A stretch of DNA of 64,000 bases from Dorea sp. AF36-15AT (GTDB lineage: Bacteria > Bacillota > Clostridia > Lachnospirales > Lachnospiraceae): assembly GCF_003477705.1 (NCBI RefSeq), contig NZ_QUDV01000006.1, positions 1-64,000 of the forward strand, given 5' to 3'. The position numbers were made by a program, and so were the translations under genes. Each line of letters begins with the position of its first letter. Position 1 is the first letter of the stretch. The notes beneath the pieces were generated by a model, which was given only the letters and a program-made list of their open reading frames with translations, was not told the origin of the DNA and did not search any database. This document shows, one piece after another, positions 42,508 through 49,776 of the stretch.

Positions 42508-42529
42508 ATATACTATATGAATAAGGTCT

Positions 42530-42690
42530 TGGATAGAGGCGCAGGTTTCATGAGTATCATATGACGATAGTGTGGCATACTGTTGTATGAGAAAGGGGAG
42601 ACTGCCGAAGATGGATTTAAGCCAAAGGATTTGTCTGGGCTGCAGGAGAATATCTTGCGGACTGTCACGAAAGTGGAGCGCTATCATGAT
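42530..42690 (+). promoter_or_regulatory. Lysine riboswitch (L-box)
   Basis: The conserved L-box elements occur in order: AGAGGCGCAG at 42536-42545, TGAGTA, GAAAGGGGAGACTGCCGAAG (42591-42610), CTGGGC, ACTGTCACGAAAGTGGAGCGCTATC (42661-42685). The P1 stem pairs GATAG (42532-42536) with CTATC (42681-42685). This aptamer binds free L-lysine and usually causes premature termination when bound. It precedes an NhaC-family transporter gene, a known target class of L-boxes. Confidence 0.93.
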
Positions 42691-42734
42691 GAATATAAGT
42701 AAGATACATTTTATAAAGTGTTGATTTAGTAATT

Positions 42735-42829: not shown

Positions 42830-44449
42830 ATGAACAACATGAAGAGAAAGATCGCATGGACGATATCTGCCATTGCATTAATGGTAATGTGCTGTCCGGT
42901 GATCGCATTTGCAGCAGACGGAGCAGAAGAGTATGTTCCAAATATGTACGCCAGCTTTTGGGCGTTGATTCCGCCGGTAGTGGCAATCGCGCTTGCATTG
43001 ATTACTAAGGAAGTATACAGTTCGCTGTTTATCGGTATTGTGATTGGTGGCGTATTTTATTCTAACTTTACATTTGAAAAAACGGTTACACATGTTGTAC
43101 AGGACGGATTCGTCGGAGTACTGGCTGACAGTTACAATATGGGTATTCTGATTTTCCTGGTAATCTTGGGAACGATCGTGTGTCTGATGAATCGTGCAGG
43201 AGGTTCGGCAGCATTTGGACGTTGGGCTGAGGTACACATTAAGACACGTGTAGGTGCACAGATTGCAACAATTATTTTGGGTATTCTGATCTTTATCGAT
43301 GACTATTTTAACTGTCTGACAGTCGGAAGTGTTATGCGTCCGGTAACTGACCGTCATAATGTATCCAGAGCGAAGTTATCTTATCTGATTGATGCGACAG
43401 CAGCTCCGGTATGTATTATTGCACCAATCTCATCCTGGGCAGCAGCTGTTACAGGATTCGTAGAGGGTGAAGATGGACTGTCCATTTTTGTAAGAGCAAT
43501 TCCGTATAATTTCTATGCATTACTTACCATTGTTATGATGTTTGGTCTGGTACTCCTCAAAGTAGAGTATGGTCCGATGAAAGTCCATGAAGATAATGCA
43601 GTTAAGAATGGAGATATTTATACAACTCCTGACAGACCATATGAGAATGCTTCCAAAGAAATCGTGAATCAGAAAGGAAGAGTTATTGATCTGGTCTTTC
43701 CGATCGTAGTGCTGATCATCTGCTGTATCATTGGAATGATCTGGTCCGGCGGATTCTTCGAGGGTGACGATTTTATCACTGCATTTTCTAACAGTGATGC
43801 ATCCGTAGGACTTGCGGTAGGAAGCTTCTTCGCGCTGATCATTTCCATTGTGTTCTATCTGGTAAGACGCGTACTGAACTTCGCAGATTGCATGTCATGT
43901 CTTCCGGAAGGATTTAAGGCGATGGTTCCGGCTATCCTGATCCTGACAATGGCATGGACATTGAAGGCAATGACAGATAGCCTTGGCGCGGCAGAATTTG
44001 TGGCTAACGCAATGCAGCATGCGGCAGGAGGACTGATGAGTCTGCTTCCGGCGATCATTTTCCTGGTAGGATGCTTCCTTGCATTTGCAACCGGTACATC
44101 ATGGGGAACCTTTGGTATCCTGATCCCGATCGTAGTAGCTGTGTTCCAGGGAACAAATGATACAATGATGATCATTTCTATTTCAGCGTGTATGGCAGGT
44201 GCAGTATGTGGAGATCACTGTTCACCGATTTCCGATACTACGATCATGGCATCTGCGGGAGCACAGTGTAATCATGTGAATCATGTATCTACACAGCTTC
44301 CATATGCTATCACTGTAGCGGCAATTTCATTTGTGACATATGTGGTCGCAGGTTTCGTGAGAACAGCATTTATCGCACTTCCGGTCGGAATCGTATTGAC
44401 AATCGGAACCTTGCTGGTACTCCGTAAGATATATGGAAAAGAAGAATAA
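42830..44449 (+). CDS. NhaC-family transporter, probable lysine carrier under L-box control
   Basis: 539-aa membrane protein with an N-terminal signal-like helix and about eleven membrane segments. The family Na+/H+ antiporter NhaC signature regions are seen: LIFIDDYFNCLTVGSVMRPVTDRH (near 160), FLAFATGTSWGTFGILIPI and DHCSPISDTTIMASAGA. By name the family suggests Na+/H+ antiport, but the lysine riboswitch directly upstream argues for lysine import, as proposed for riboswitch-linked NhaC proteins (often called LysW). Monocistronic, ending in a terminator. The call of family is firm, the substrate is inferred. Confidence 0.9.
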   Translation: MNNMKRKIAWTISAIALMVMCCPVIAFAADGAEEYVPNMYASFWALIPPVVAIALALITKEVYSSLFIGIVIGGVFYSNFTFEKTVTHVVQDGFVGVLADSYNMGILIFLVILGTIVCLMNRAGGSAAFGRWAEVHIKTRVGAQIATIILGILIFIDDYFNCLTVGSVMRPVTDRHNVSRAKLSYLIDATAAPVCIIAPISSWAAAVTGFVEGEDGLSIFVRAIPYNFYALLTIVMMFGLVLLKVEYGPMKVHEDNAVKNGDIYTTPDRPYENASKEIVNQKGRVIDLVFPIVVLIICCIIGMIWSGGFFEGDDFITAFSNSDASVGLAVGSFFALIISIVFYLVRRVLNFADCMSCLPEGFKAMVPAILILTMAWTLKAMTDSLGAAEFVANAMQHAAGGLMSLLPAIIFLVGCFLAFATGTSWGTFGILIPIVVAVFQGTNDTMMIISISACMAGAVCGDHCSPISDTTIMASAGAQCNHVNHVSTQLPYAITVAAISFVTYVVAGFVRTAFIALPVGIVLTIGTLLVLRKIYGKEE

Positions 44450-44512: not shown

Positions 44513-44541
44513 TTGACAGACCTGCGACTCCGTGTTACATT
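44513..44541 (+). promoter_or_regulatory. Promoter of the cobalamin-riboswitch transcript
   Basis: A perfect -35 TTGACA (44513-44518) and -10 TACATT (44536-44541) separated by 17 bp, about 30 nt before the first riboswitch helix. Confidence 0.7.
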
Positions 44542-44574: not shown

Positions 44575-44740
44575 ATGTGTGAGGTGTCGGTCGGATTACA
44601 AGTATGGTCTGACCGGTGAAAAGGGAAACAGGTGTGAATCCTGTACGAACTCGTCACCGTATTTCACGAGCAGAAGAAGTATCCACTGGGAGACCGGGAA
44701 GGATCGGATGCGTCAGAGTGATAAGCCGGGAGACCTGCCT
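44575..44740 (+). promoter_or_regulatory. Cobalamin (AdoCbl) riboswitch
   Basis: Conserved elements appear in order: GGTGTCGG (44583-44590), GACCGGTGAAAAGGGAAAC (44611-44629), AGGTGTGAATCCTGTACGAACTCGTCACCG, CCACTGGGAGACCGGGAAGG (44683-44702) and the B12 box AAGCCGGGAGACCTGCC (44723-44739). This fold binds adenosylcobalamin or a related corrinoid and normally switches off downstream genes. A short imperfect hairpin AAGACTAT / ATAGTTTT (44801-44808 with 44816-44823) before T-rich sequence could be the terminator. The controlled genes are the chelatase lipoprotein and probably the next lipoprotein. Confidence 0.92.
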
Positions 44741-44908
44741 TTCGCAGTACAGGAATGAGAATTCATGCCACGAGCAACTGGCAGTACGAAAGATAGATAA
44801 AAGACTATTTTGCTGATAGTTTTGTCTTTGCGTATCTTTGTTTTTGGAATCTTCGTTCTTGTACGGAACGGAGTATTTTTGTGTCCAAAATTCAAGGAGG
44901 AACGGAGC

Positions 44909-46111
44909 ATGAAGAAGAAACTGGTGGCAGCGTTACTTACAGCAGCAATGGCAATGTCTCTGCTTGCAGGATGCGGAAGCAGTGACAGCAAGGGCAGTGA
45001 TGCAGACAGCAAGGAGACTGCAGAAAGTACGGAGGATAGTGATCAGGAGGCAGCAGACAAGGTGGCAGACCTGATTGATGCAATCTATGTACAAGAGAGA
45101 ACAGAGGACACTGACAAGCAGTGTGAAGAAGCAAAAACAGCATGGGATAAGCTGACAGATGCGCAGAAGGAACTGGTATCCGGAGAGAATGCTGATCCGG
45201 ACTATTTTGGAAGAGATACAGGAGATGCATCAAAAGATGATCCGTTAAATGAAGATGAGATTGGGGAAAATGAACTTCTGGTCGTAAGCTTTGGTACATC
45301 ATTTAATGACAGCCGTGCGACAGATATCGGTGGCATTGAGAAAGCACTTCAGGAAGCTAATCCAGACTGGTCTGTAAGAAGAGCATTTACCGCTCAGATC
45401 ATTATCAACCATGTACAGGCCCGTGATGGTGAAAAGATTGATAACATGGATCAGGCACTGGAGCGTGCGGTCAATAATGGCGTAAAGAATCTGGTTGTAC
45501 AGCCGACACATCTGATGCACGGAGCAGAATATGATGAACTGAGTGAAGCAGTTGAGAATTATAAGGACAAATTTGAGTCTGTAAAGATTGCAGAGCCTCT
45601 TCTTGGAGAAGTAGGATCTGATGCAACTGTGATCAATGCAGATAAAGAAGCTGTTGCAAAAGCAATCACGGACGAAGCAGTAAAGGCAGCAGAGTATGAC
45701 AGCTTGGAAGCAGCAGAAGCAGACGGAACAGCATTTGTATTCATGGGACATGGTACTTCTCATGTGGCAAATGTAAGCTATGACCAGATGCAGACACAGA
45801 TGGAACAGCTTGGATACAAGAATGTATTCATCGGTACGGTAGAAGGTGAACCAGAGGATACAGCCTGCGAAGCTGTTATCGACAAGATCAAAGAAGCAGG
45901 ATACAAGAAAGTAATCCTTCGTCCTCTGATGGTAGTTGCAGGAGACCATGCAAATAATGATATGGCTGGTGATGATGACGATTCATGGAAGAGCCAGTTT
46001 GAAGCATCAGGAGCATTTGACAGTATCGAGACACAGATCGAAGGTCTGGGAAGAATCCCGGCTGTTCAGCAGATCTATGTAGAGCATACAAAGGCAGCTA
46101 TTGAACAGTAG
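44909..46111 (+). CDS. Lipoprotein-anchored sirohydrochlorin cobaltochelatase-like protein (CbiK family)
   Basis: 400-aa exported lipoprotein (lipobox LAGC, C22) with an acidic linker and a small helical segment (about 46-92, ending AKTAWDKLTDAQKELV, similar to spacer modules of surface proteins). A CbiK-type chelatase domain follows (about 122-395). Candidate metal/catalytic histidines are H281 in GHGTSH and H347 in GDHANNDMAGDD, spaced as the two essential histidines of Salmonella CbiK; PTHLMHG (H201, H204) is also conserved-looking. The start 44909 is fixed by AAGGAGG at 44894-44900 and the signal peptide. A cobalamin riboswitch lies upstream. An extracellular location is odd for cobalamin synthesis, so scavenging or dechelation of external tetrapyrroles is possible. 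Confidence 0.88.
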   Translation: MKKKLVAALLTAAMAMSLLAGCGSSDSKGSDADSKETAESTEDSDQEAADKVADLIDAIYVQERTEDTDKQCEEAKTAWDKLTDAQKELVSGENADPDYFGRDTGDASKDDPLNEDEIGENELLVVSFGTSFNDSRATDIGGIEKALQEANPDWSVRRAFTAQIIINHVQARDGEKIDNMDQALERAVNNGVKNLVVQPTHLMHGAEYDELSEAVENYKDKFESVKIAEPLLGEVGSDATVINADKEAVAKAITDEAVKAAEYDSLEAAEADGTAFVFMGHGTSHVANVSYDQMQTQMEQLGYKNVFIGTVEGEPEDTACEAVIDKIKEAGYKKVILRPLMVVAGDHANNDMAGDDDDSWKSQFEASGAFDSIETQIEGLGRIPAVQQIYVEHTKAAIEQ

Positions 46112-46130
46112 ATTGTAGAGGCGGTAAAGT

Positions 46131-46682
46131 ATGTTGAGAAAGAAGATAGCGGTATTATTGCTTTCCGCAGTTATGGCAATGACCATGCTCAGCGGATGCG
46201 GCGATAACGCTGCAAAAGAAGACAAAAAAGCAGCTACAGAAGATCAGAATAAGGATGATGCTTCAGAAGCTAAGGAAGAAGAGGCAGATGAAGCGGAAAA
46301 GGCACCGGTAGAAGATGGTGAATACTGGGTGGATTTTAATACTGACAGTGGTATGTTTCATGAAAATCCAGATTTCGATGGTGGTAAGGCAACATTGATC
46401 GTTGAGGATGGAAAGATGACGGTGCATATTACTCTGAATTCCAAGAATATCGTGCAGTTATTCTTAGGAACGGCAAAGGATGCACAGAAAGATGGCGCAG
46501 ATCTGATCGATCCTTCTGGTACAGAAACGATTGAATATACAGACGGTTCAGAACCGAAAGAAGTATATACATTTGATGTGCCGGTAAAGAAACTGGATGA
46601 AGAGTTTGATCTGGCACTGATCGGTACCAAGGACAAGTGGTATGACCACAAAGTCAGCGTAAGTAATCCTGTGGCAAAGTAA
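46131..46682 (+). CDS. Small lipoprotein with NEAT-like beta domain
   Basis: 183-aa lipoprotein (lipobox LSGC, C23), an acidic Lys/Glu/Ala linker (24-62), then a beta-rich domain of ~115 residues. The strand pattern GKATLIVEDGKMTVHITLNSKNIVQLFLGTA ... YTFDVPVKKLDEEF ... WYDHKVSV looks like the heme-binding NEAT fold, although the second tyrosine of the usual YxxxY motif is not seen. It starts 19 bp after the CbiK-like gene and is probably in the same cobalamin-controlled operon. A tetrapyrrole-binding partner for the chelatase is a reasonable inference; the family call is by eye. Confidence 0.7.
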   Translation: MLRKKIAVLLLSAVMAMTMLSGCGDNAAKEDKKAATEDQNKDDASEAKEEEADEAEKAPVEDGEYWVDFNTDSGMFHENPDFDGGKATLIVEDGKMTVHITLNSKNIVQLFLGTAKDAQKDGADLIDPSGTETIEYTDGSEPKEVYTFDVPVKKLDEEFDLALIGTKDKWYDHKVSVSNPVAK

Positions 46683-46703
46683 TAGAATAGAAATAGAATC
46701 TCG

Positions 46704-46742
46704 GCAGGTGGAACGTAGAGATATGTTCTGCCTGCTGTTTCT
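46704..46742 (+). terminator. Rho-independent terminator after the lipoprotein pair
   Basis: Imperfect stem GCAGGTGGAAC / GTTCTGCCTGC (46704-46714 with 46725-46735) followed by TGTTTCTTT. Confidence 0.7.
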
Positions 46743-46851: not shown

Positions 46852-49776
46852 ATGAGTATAAGAGATTTGAATCAATACGAGATTATAAAGGATGAAGATC
46901 TGCAGGATGTCAAGTGCCACGGTTATCTGCTGAAGCATAAGAAAAGCGGTGCCAAACTTGTGCTGATGGAGGCAGATGATGACAATAAGGTGTTTTCGGT
47001 AGGATTCCGTACACCGCCGGAGGACAGCACAGGACTTCCGCATATTCTGGAGCATTCGGTACTGTGCGGATCTGATCATTTCCCAGTCAAGGATCCGTTT
47101 GTAGAGCTGGTCAAAGGATCGCTGAATACATTTTTAAATGCGATGACTTATCCGGACAAGACGATGTATCCGGTGGCAAGCTGCAATGATAAGGATTTCC
47201 AGAACCTGATGCATGTATATATGGATGCAGTATTCTATCCGAATATCTATAAGCATGAGGAGATTTTCCGTCAGGAGGGATGGAGTTATAAGCTGGATTC
47301 TGAGGATGCGGACCTGGAATACAACGGCGTTGTATATAATGAGATGAAAGGAGCATTTTCTTCGCCAGAGGGTGTGCTTGACCGAGTGGTATTGAATGAA
47401 CTGTTTCCGGATACTGCTTATGCTAATGAATCAGGTGGAGATCCGGATGTAATCCCGAATCTCAGCTATGAGCAGTTTCTGGCATTTCATAAGAAATATT
47501 ATCATCCGTCCAACAGCTATATTTATCTGTATGGTGATATGGATATGGAAGAGAAGCTTGTATGGCTGGATCAGGAATATCTGAGCAAGTTTGATGTGGC
47601 AGAGATTGATTCGCGGATTGCTTATCAGGAGCCATTTGCGAAGATGAAAGAAGTGGAGATGCCATATTCGGTTACCAGTGAGGAACCATTGGAGGATAAT
47701 ACATTCCTTTCTTATAATAAGGTAATCGGAACCAGTCTGGATAAAGAATTGTATGTGGCGTTTGAGATTCTGGATTATGCGTTGTTATCAGCACCGGGAG
47801 CACCGCTTAAGAAGGCACTGTTAGAGGCTGGAATTGGTAAGGATATTCTGGGCTCTTATGACAATGGCATATATCAGCCAATTTTTTCTGTAGTTGCTAA
47901 GAATGCGAATCCGGAGCAGAAGGAAGAATTTGTGACACTGATCGAGAAGCTTCTTACAGATATGACAGAGCATGGCATTGACAGAAAAGCACTGGAGGCA
48001 GGTATTAATTATCATGAGTTCCAGTACCGAGAAGCGGATTACGGACGTTACCCGAAGGGTCTGATGTACGGTCTGCAGATCATGGACAGCTGGCTCTATG
48101 ATGAAAATGAACCGTTTATTCATATCCAGGCATTGGACACATTTGCATTTCTTAAGAAACAGATGAATACCGGATATTTTGAGAATCTGATCCGTGAGTA
48201 TCTGCTGGACAATGAGCACGGTGTGATCGTAACGCTGAAACCGGAGCGCGGACGTACAGCGCGTATGGACAAGGAACTTCACGATAAGCTGCAGGCATAT
48301 AAGGCAGGTCTCAGCAAAGAAGAGATTGCAGAATTAGTAGAGCGTACGAAGGCGTTGGAAATATACCAGTCAGAGCCATCCGATGCGGAAGCGCTGGCTA
48401 CGATTCCTGTATTGAAGCGTGAGGATATCAGCAGAGAGATTGCACCGATCTATAATGAAGAAATGAAACTCGCAGGTATTCCGATGGTATTCCACGAGAT
48501 TGATACCAATGGTATAGGCTATATAGATATTATGTTCGATATGTCAGAGGTTCCGGAGGAATTGCTTCCGTATGCGGGAATCCTGCAGGGTGTGCTGGGA
48601 ATCATTGATACAGAGAATTATGAATATGGTGAACTCTTTAATGAGATCAATGTGCATACCGGCGGTATCGGTACATCGTTGGAACTTTACACAGATGTGA
48701 CCAAGGCAAAAGAAAAAGAATTCCGGGCAACATTCGAGATCAAGGCCAAAGCATTATATGACAAGCTTCCAATTGCATTTAACATGATGCAGGAGATTCT
48801 GGTAAGATCGAAGCTGGATGATGAGAAACGTCTGAAAGAGATCATTGCCATGACAGCATCCAGATTGCTGATGCGGTTCCAGTCATCCGGACATACGACA
48901 GCAGCGCTCCGGGCAATGTCTTATGCGTCACCGTCAGCCAAGCTAAAAGATATGACTAGCGGTATTGAGTACTACCAGAATGTGGCAAGAATTGAGAAAG
49001 CATTTGATACAGAAAAGGATGAGCTGATCACCAATCTCATCAAGCTTACCAGAATGCTGTTCCGTGCTGACAATATGATGATCAGCTATACGGCAGAACG
49101 TGTGGGACTGGAAGGAATGAAACAGCAGATCAGCGCATTTGCGGAAGGCTTATATCTGCAGGAGAAAGAGAGCGGAAAGCACTGCGAGCTTCACTGTGAG
49201 AAGAAGAACGAAGGATTTAAGACAGCGTCCAAGGTACAGTATGTGGCACGTTGCGGTAATTTTATTGATCAGGGCGCAGAATATACCGGAGCACTGCAGG
49301 TACTGAAGGTTATTATGGGTTATGAATATCTGTGGCAGAATATCCGTGTAAAGGGCGGAGCATATGGATGTATGAGTAACTTTAACCGGATCGGAGAAGG
49401 TTACTTTGTATCTTACCGTGATCCGAATCTGGAACGCACGATGGAGATTTATGAAGGCGTGGCAGATTATCTGCGGACATTTACTGTCAGTGATTTTGAT
49501 ATGAATAAATATATCATCGGCACGATCAGTAATCTGGATCAGCCAATGACACCGGCACTGAAAGGTGACCGTTCTATGAACCTGTATATGAATCATGTGA
49601 CAGAAGATATGATCAAAGAAGAACGTGCACAGGTACTGGAGGCAACACAGGAAGATATCAGAGGACTTGCAGGAATCGTGGAAGCGATGATGAAAGCAGA
49701 GCAGATCTGTGTCATCGGAAGTGAGGACAAGATCGAAGAAGCGAAGGATATGTTTGATACCGTGACCGGATTTTAG
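46852..49776 (+). CDS. M16 family zinc metallopeptidase (presequence-protease/PreP-like)
   Basis: 974-aa inverzincin. The zinc motif HxxEH is at H64, E67, H68 (LPHILEHSVLCGS), with the distal glutamate in YNEMKGAFSS near residue 160. The chain holds four M16 modules and an M16C-associated region in the middle, as in PreP/Cym1 and bacterial homologs. No signal peptide, so cytoplasmic; likely degrades short peptides. The start at 46852 has only a modest ribosome site. Followed by era at a 36-bp gap. Confidence 0.93.
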   Translation: MSIRDLNQYEIIKDEDLQDVKCHGYLLKHKKSGAKLVLMEADDDNKVFSVGFRTPPEDSTGLPHILEHSVLCGSDHFPVKDPFVELVKGSLNTFLNAMTYPDKTMYPVASCNDKDFQNLMHVYMDAVFYPNIYKHEEIFRQEGWSYKLDSEDADLEYNGVVYNEMKGAFSSPEGVLDRVVLNELFPDTAYANESGGDPDVIPNLSYEQFLAFHKKYYHPSNSYIYLYGDMDMEEKLVWLDQEYLSKFDVAEIDSRIAYQEPFAKMKEVEMPYSVTSEEPLEDNTFLSYNKVIGTSLDKELYVAFEILDYALLSAPGAPLKKALLEAGIGKDILGSYDNGIYQPIFSVVAKNANPEQKEEFVTLIEKLLTDMTEHGIDRKALEAGINYHEFQYREADYGRYPKGLMYGLQIMDSWLYDENEPFIHIQALDTFAFLKKQMNTGYFENLIREYLLDNEHGVIVTLKPERGRTARMDKELHDKLQAYKAGLSKEEIAELVERTKALEIYQSEPSDAEALATIPVLKREDISREIAPIYNEEMKLAGIPMVFHEIDTNGIGYIDIMFDMSEVPEELLPYAGILQGVLGIIDTENYEYGELFNEINVHTGGIGTSLELYTDVTKAKEKEFRATFEIKAKALYDKLPIAFNMMQEILVRSKLDDEKRLKEIIAMTASRLLMRFQSSGHTTAALRAMSYASPSAKLKDMTSGIEYYQNVARIEKAFDTEKDELITNLIKLTRMLFRADNMMISYTAERVGLEGMKQQISAFAEGLYLQEKESGKHCELHCEKKNEGFKTASKVQYVARCGNFIDQGAEYTGALQVLKVIMGYEYLWQNIRVKGGAYGCMSNFNRIGEGYFVSYRDPNLERTMEIYEGVADYLRTFTVSDFDMNKYIIGTISNLDQPMTPALKGDRSMNLYMNHVTEDMIKEERAQVLEATQEDIRGLAGIVEAMMKAEQICVIGSEDKIEEAKDMFDTVTGF

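Follow-up and report, generated by a model that had tools for sequence, protein, structure and literature searches.

The Isd heme relay of Gram-positive bacteria carries NEAT domains in series at the cell surface and uses a FecCD-type importer. The Iht system of Porphyromonas gingivalis has its own TonB receptor, and the available part of its description mentions no NEAT domain; its IhtB protein is presumably the one also called FetB. BtuFCD with BtuG and BtuH combines B12-linked capture at the surface with a substrate-binding protein (SBP), a permease and an ATPase, and the surface folds of BtuG and BtuH are unrelated to the CbiK and NEAT surface proteins considered here. Finally, Shelton et al. 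(PMC6461909) predicted bacteria whose cobamide synthesis depends on importing a tetrapyrrole precursor and tested dependence on one such compound, 5-aminolevulinic acid, with no importer named in the accessible part of the paper; a review quoting them (PMC8123684, likewise in part) puts precorrin-2 salvagers at 0.6% of bacteria. Here we analyse a stretch of 64,000 nucleotides (the window) from Dorea sp. AF36-15AT, contig NZ_QUDV01000006.1, in which a cobalamin riboswitch, a lipoprotein with a CbiK-type chelatase domain, a lipoprotein with a NEAT-like domain and a terminator form one self-contained two-gene unit. We propose, with a probability of roughly 55%, that these two proteins form the external part of a system for the uptake of corrin precursors. 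The system shares with Isd the NEAT fold and the series of surface domains, and differs from it by its B12 riboswitch, the CbiK lipoprotein at its head, the corrin genes downstream and an incomplete S/YXXXY motif. Unlike BtuFCD, BtuG and BtuH, which bind vitamin B12 itself according to the available part of their descriptions, it would take up a precursor.

The gene pair and its riboswitch are as the first-pass annotation, made from the letters alone, had described them. The covariance-model check that it proposed assigns the riboswitch to RF00174, with 85.0 bits in the window against a gathering score of 31.5. Its reading of the first protein as a CbiK with an intact catalytic pair also stands. 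Indeed, the fold is that of the cytoplasmic cobaltochelatase CbiK, and H281 and H347 align with H145 and H207 of 1qgo, the pair named as the active-site histidines of CbiK in the part of PMC7689651 available; both are kept throughout an alignment of the window protein with 34 of the 80 related loci described below. The protein differs from cytoplasmic CbiK by its predicted extracytoplasmic location and an extra N-terminal part, and because it reaches only 203.8 bits against the 400-bit NCBIfam equivalog cut-off for biosynthetic CbiK, it is, on this score, not classed as a biosynthetic enzyme. Both proteins are predicted from their signal sequences to be lipid-anchored outside the membrane, in agreement with the earlier annotation.

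The domain of the second protein, here called NEAT-A, misses the gathering score of Pfam PF05031 (19.7 against 32.8 bits), although the fold search settles its NEAT beta-sandwich fold, as had been suspected. NEAT is moreover the sole Pfam family matched by more than one NEAT-A member (27/69 at E 0.01), and a sequence search against solved structures returned weak NEAT matches (best E 0.036). For NEAT-B, a second domain of the relatives, the same search gave no match; weak Pfam NEAT matches in 22 of 55 members and a profile comparison with NEAT-A of 94.6% point to the same family. Foldseek matches to the whole model of the L021 protein, of which NEAT-B is a part, include tandem NEAT domains; the VIA list for this model covers mainly the CbiK part, and the structural evidence for NEAT-B thus holds only within the larger model.

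The window pair is one arrangement of a widespread system. The survey of gene neighbourhoods that the first-pass annotation had called for was made on related loci (L numbers), the best 80 of at least 584 confirmed matches from one scan of genome contigs, and it bore out the association with the riboswitch: a B12 box lies 30-700 nt upstream in 74 of the 80, against 6 other matches in 2.32 Mb. Among the six loci without a box, an Rfam cobalamin-type riboswitch was found in L018 and L069, none was found by the same search in L038, L048 and L072, and L043 has only about 113 nt of upstream sequence. NEAT-A follows CbiK in 78/80, often within the same polypeptide; L060 has no NEAT-A and L046 only 502 nt downstream. 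Where at least 6 kb follows (65 loci), NEAT-B was found in 57, an SBP (Peripla_BP_2) in 53, a FecCD permease in 53 and an ATP-binding cassette (ABC) ATPase in 54, which corresponds to a BtuFCD-type importer; no such importer stands beside the window pair, as in the 12 of these loci that lack FecCD within 8.2 kb. Under one riboswitch, the order in the relatives is surface CbiK, NEAT-A, NEAT-B, SBP, FecCD, ATPase. The parts are joined by fusions (CbiK-A, CbiK-A-B, A-B-SBP and B-SBP), so that NEAT-B may be C-terminal in the NEAT-A protein, standalone, N-terminal in the binding protein or C-terminal in a CbiK-NEAT-A protein. Since the same parts are shuffled by fusion and yet keep one order, a physical relay among them is suggested. 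Further downstream, 34 of the 65 loci carry cob/cbi genes of varying content: CbiP, which some loci carry as a fusion with the ATPase, with CobT, CobU and CobS, or CbiC, CbiD, CbiF and CbiG.

Some related loci have particular features. At L065:12201-14555 a 784-amino-acid (aa) protein fuses an ABC ATPase to CbiP (cobyric acid synthase), with similar lengths in several other loci, and one long open frame encodes CbiK-NEAT-CbiK at L018:8001-10670 and G183:C6:18970-21249. At L048:5743-5903 lies a TwoAYGGAY RNA (RF01731); no cobalamin riboswitch was detected for the CbiK gene of this locus. Proteins of about 980-1595 aa with NEAT-like domains occur at L135:12596, L136:4387, L138:3737, L139:8415, L141:5391 and L005:12260-17047; all except that of L005 also carry a binding-protein-like part, and those of L135, L136, L138 and L141 lie just 3′ of a cobalamin riboswitch and adjoin SBP, FecCD and ATPase genes. 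Window-type CbiK was also seen in a Spirochaetaceae metagenome-assembled genome, Faecalibacterium, Gemmiger and Pseudoflavonifractor (L068, L037, L033, L020), which hints at transfer between groups.

The phylogenetic profile covers 200 genomes of one family (G numbers; completeness of at least 95% requested, values not shown). CbiK was counted in 117, HemC in 91, CbiD in 116 and, under strict filters, a cobalamin riboswitch in 171. Window-type CbiK, defined by match length, amounts to 55 copies in 53 genomes. The NEAT-A profile was found in 68 genomes, 52 of them with strong matches, and these strong matches are confined to genomes with window-type CbiK (52/53): they lie within 2.5 kb downstream of 49 copies, upstream of 3 and near none of the remaining 3 (in G103 and G051, NEAT-A is on a contig other than that of CbiK), and near none of the 94 other CbiK matches. 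At least 29 of the 55 copies have a riboswitch within 1.5 kb upstream. CbiD is present in 53/53 carriers, versus 116/200 overall. According to the other genes, 26 carriers have neither HemC nor another CbiK, 6 have HemC only, 21 have both and none has another CbiK without HemC (25, 6 and 21 of 52 when the doubtful genome G055 is left out).

These 26 genomes, hereafter headless, may resemble the salvagers of Shelton et al. in having corrin ring genes without the early pathway, as far as the accessible part of PMC6461909 describes them. All 26 have CbiD, HemB and HemC were found in none, and CobA above cut-off is missing in 24 (it is present in G104 and G149), these three being the early-pathway genes searched. 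Thirteen were counted as having CbiL at 160 bits or more, three of these falling slightly below the cut-off. A check of 39 genomes for CbiX gave no match outside CbiK genes (35/35 matches inside them). HemC, HemB and CobA are also missing from G005, G006, G007 and G221, reached through the loci; G006 carries a second, divergent CbiK. By comparison, CobA exceeds 300 bits in each of six carriers with HemC, and HemB is present in 8 of 9 HemC-positive genomes tested (exception G154).

Eighteen headless clusters were examined: 15 from the 26 genomes, chosen for CbiD near CbiK on the same contig, and those of G005, G006 and G221. In all of them the importer leads into cbi/cob genes, and CbiK, NEAT-A, NEAT-B, SBP, FecCD, ATPase, CbiC, CbiD, CbiF, CbiG and CbiH are present in 18/18. 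CbiJ, CbiE and CbiP were counted in 17 each, CbiT in 15, CbiA in 14, and CobT/U/S/C, CbiB and CobD in 15 each, some clusters ending at the 20-kb limit of the stretch. The cluster of Lachnospiraceae bacterium AC2031 (L128), a headless strain with a second, divergent CbiK, for instance, runs from the importer through CbiA with no CbiL or CobA inside; Butyrivibrio sp. AE2015, likewise headless, gave no CbiL match. CbiL does occur in or near some clusters: it follows CbiA at the far end of the G221 cluster (155.6 bits), lies between CbiD and CbiF in a separate cbi cluster of G185 (L136) and sits just beyond the stretch examined in G153. In G142, G021, G137, G069 and G006 it is outside the cluster, and the other 11/18 have no comparable match.

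In cells where the beginning of the ring was not found, the ring genes thus lie behind an importer and a surface chelatase, which argues for import of that beginning. We can propose the following mechanism. Scarcity of adenosylcobalamin would permit transcription of the unit, as the RNA family implies. The CbiK domain would bind an early intermediate of the ring scavenged from outside, with sirohydrochlorin and factor III as the likeliest compounds. It would probably also insert cobalt outside the cell, because the catalytic pair is intact and in many genomes no other chelatase of the CbiK/CbiX type was found. From there the ring would pass to NEAT-A, next to NEAT-B and finally to the FecCD-type ABC importer, as domain order and fusions suggest, and Cbi enzymes from CbiL or CbiH onward would complete the ring and the cobamide. 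The imported compound might be cobalt-sirohydrochlorin where CbiL is kept and cobalt-factor III where it is missing. We would give even odds to this fuller account, in which an extracellular chelatase loads cobalt into rings made by other microbes, a NEAT relay passes them on and a headless pathway finishes B12. Compared with the salvagers of Shelton et al., as partly available, it names a candidate uptake system with a surface chelatase and places entry at or after sirohydrochlorin. The role that the first-pass annotation had suggested, the handling of external tetrapyrroles when cobalamin is scarce, is likewise supported as a probable one.

A second lineage of surface CbiK, shorter and accompanied by a weaker NEAT, was also found. 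Of the shorter CbiKs, 13 lie within 2.5 kb of a weak NEAT match, and the idea that NEAT pairing is unique to window-type CbiK was rejected on that account. A cobalamin riboswitch is present in 10 of the 12 such loci examined; nine of these ten show SBP, FecCD and ATPase, and L107 only FecCD and ATPase. In the two others (L111, L112), CbiK looks cytoplasmic by its N-terminus and is directly followed by a NEAT-B-like protein (L111:3586, L112:3852), no cobalamin riboswitch being found in the stretch examined.

Surface capture of corrinoids that are complete or almost so (cobamides, cobinamide, cobyrinate), in the manner of BtuG and BtuH and with CbiK as a binding module only, fits the B12 riboswitch as well; the SBP, FecCD and ATPase families serve corrinoids too, and some clusters go on with the salvage genes CbiP, CobT, CobU and CobS. 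We regard it as unlikely, although it survives best among the alternatives. A plain corrinoid importer would be predicted in corrinoid users that lack CbiD, yet surface CbiK is present in only 1 of the 84 CbiD-less genomes (G120), though 61 of them have a cobalamin riboswitch. With both lineages pooled, CbiD is found in 63/64 genomes with surface CbiK versus 53/136 others. The corrin-ring genes after the importer in the 18 headless clusters (chosen for nearness) and the catalytic residues kept in 35/35 aligned CbiKs also speak against a mere binding module.

The first-pass annotation had also considered heme as a ligand. A scavenger of heme or siroheme like Isd or Iht, its B12 control explained by competition between cobalt and iron tetrapyrroles, would agree with the NEAT fold and with the closeness in fold of two solved structures, FetB and the periplasmic CbiK of Desulfovibrio. 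However, the partners in the clusters are corrin genes: among the relatives, the B12-riboswitch clusters headed by the pair contain a FecCD importer, and CbiD accompanies it in all 53 carriers (G055 doubtful). This operon content led us to discard heme as the only substrate. The first tyrosine of S/YXXXY, the heme-binding NEAT motif in the available part of PMC7815599 (according to which heme binding is also seen in some NEAT domains with an incomplete motif), is kept in NEAT-A as Y171, but the second is V175 in 69/69, in a register deduced from the last strand; NEAT-B has instead an invariant H-E-x-x-Y (55/55). Moreover, a tree of 40 hand-chosen CbiK rows (L068, L037 and L020 included), with several long branches and a bootstrap that had not settled, places 30/30 surface CbiKs in one clade (support 100/99) and FetB with the periplasmic Desulfovibrio CbiK outside it (98/91). 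The comparison with IhtB made in that annotation therefore holds as an analogy and not as common membership of a clade. Altogether, a heme scavenger appears improbable. Finally, a device that concentrates cobalt, as such or in a complex, to feed B12 synthesis in the cytosol, to which the cobalt chelatase fold, the catalytic histidines and the linkage to corrin synthesis might lead, is the most improbable, as FecCD importers and NEAT domains suit flat tetrapyrroles over metal ions and cobalt alone would supply no ring in headless genomes.

Several observations weigh against corrin-precursor uptake as proposed here. CbiL at 160 bits or more was not found in 13 of the 26 headless genomes, and one single imported intermediate thus does not fit all. 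In 11/26, CbiD is not near CbiK on the same contig, so that a joint CbiK-cbi cluster is not general. In G039, CbiD and a NEAT-SBP-FecCD-ATPase locus are present while HemC and CbiK of any kind are missing, which means that surface CbiK is not required in every case. CbiD without HemC or any CbiK is also the situation in G080, G108 and G166. Conversely, 21/53 carriers keep CbiD, HemC and another CbiK. HemC is missing from 30 of 63 CbiD genomes with surface CbiK versus 5 of 53 without, and the Fisher p of 5.9e-6 is descriptive only, kin genomes not being independent. The class "window-type" rests on match length, and G055 probably does not belong in it, having a 293-aa open frame and neither NEAT-A nor a riboswitch match.

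The lone pair of the window is not odd among its nearest relatives. G154, the nearest found, shares 74% identity in NEAT (397 family genomes compared) and 87% in CbiK; the values for G185 are 59% and 81%. Both likewise have the CbiK-NEAT pair by itself behind a riboswitch (L134, L137), and a separate locus with a second riboswitch at its head (L135, L136) comprises an approximately 980-aa NEAT-SBP-like protein, SBP, FecCD, ATPase and cbi genes. The cluster is undivided in L001, whose CbiK is at the same distance from the window as that of G185 (81%). The pair as a broken remnant was rejected, G154 and G185 showing the same split, and the importer and cbi genes of the Dorea genome may be expected elsewhere. 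The earlier remark that no cbi/cob genes lie beside the pair is thus true locally, and it does not extend to the genome of G154 with its second, riboswitch-headed cluster.

The features of the unit are collected in the table. The promoter is weak on its own, as 6 sites of this quality occur in the stretch against 4.7 in shuffles. The first hairpin, with its T-rich tail, sits between the aptamer and the start codon and is a candidate expression platform acting as a terminator. A 974-aa open reading frame (ORF) at 46852 begins beyond the second. Upstream, the window holds a lysine riboswitch (RF00168, 88 bits, 42526-42691) ahead of a 539-aa membrane-protein ORF (42830-44449), which resembles an NhaC-type antiporter.

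Table. Features of the riboswitch-CbiK-NEAT unit in the window (positions in the 64,000-nt stretch)
Feature	Position	Strand	Evidence or detail
Sigma-70-like promoter, TTGACA-17-TACATT, TG ahead of second hexamer	44513..44541	+	10/12 matches
Cobalamin riboswitch aptamer RF00174	44565..44756	+	85.0 bits, full model length
Hairpin then TATTTTTGTG, candidate intrinsic terminator	44851..44873	+	9 pairs, 4 G-C
Surface lipoprotein with CbiK-type chelatase domain, 400 aa	44909..46111	+	lipobox LLAGC
CbiK domain, residues 123-399	45275..46105	+	Pfam 252.7 bits
E207	45527-45529	+	identical in 35/35 aligned rows
H281	45749-45751	+	identical in 35/35 aligned rows
H347	45947-45949	+	identical in 35/35 aligned rows
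Lipoprotein with NEAT-like domain, 183 aa	46131..46682	+	lipobox MLSGC
NEAT-A domain; W170, Y171, H173, V175	46296..46679	+	four residues identical in 69/69 aligned rows
Terminator hairpin closing the two-gene unit	46702..46737	+	16 pairs; -26.9 kcal/mol, z -4.5

No description of the pair or operon was found in the open-access literature searched, which did not take in earlier comparative-genomic work on B12 riboswitches from subscription journals, nor in the available parts of PMC6461909, PMC8123684, PMC7689651, PMC7815599, PMC10913741, PMC12654859, PMC6593275, PMC2667541, PMC10327494 and PMC7299338. As P. gingivalis is said to be without the steps to precorrin-2 (PMC6461909) and IhtB not to be regulated by Fur (PMC10913741), in the parts of both papers available, IhtB/FetB merits re-testing.

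The CbiK-NEAT importer system is a concrete and genetically coherent candidate for precursor uptake in gut and rumen Lachnospiraceae. If the proposal is true, it would provide an importer for the predicted precorrin-2 salvagers and account for the use of the B12 pathway by bacteria that have only its second half, and genomes of apparently incomplete B12 producers would be reinterpreted as those of bacteria living on precursors. Metal insertion would be possible outside the cell, and the NEAT domains of this system would carry a ligand other than heme. Half-built corrin rings would then be a traded nutrient, and the gut bacteria that complete such a shared ring to B12 would form a nutritional class.

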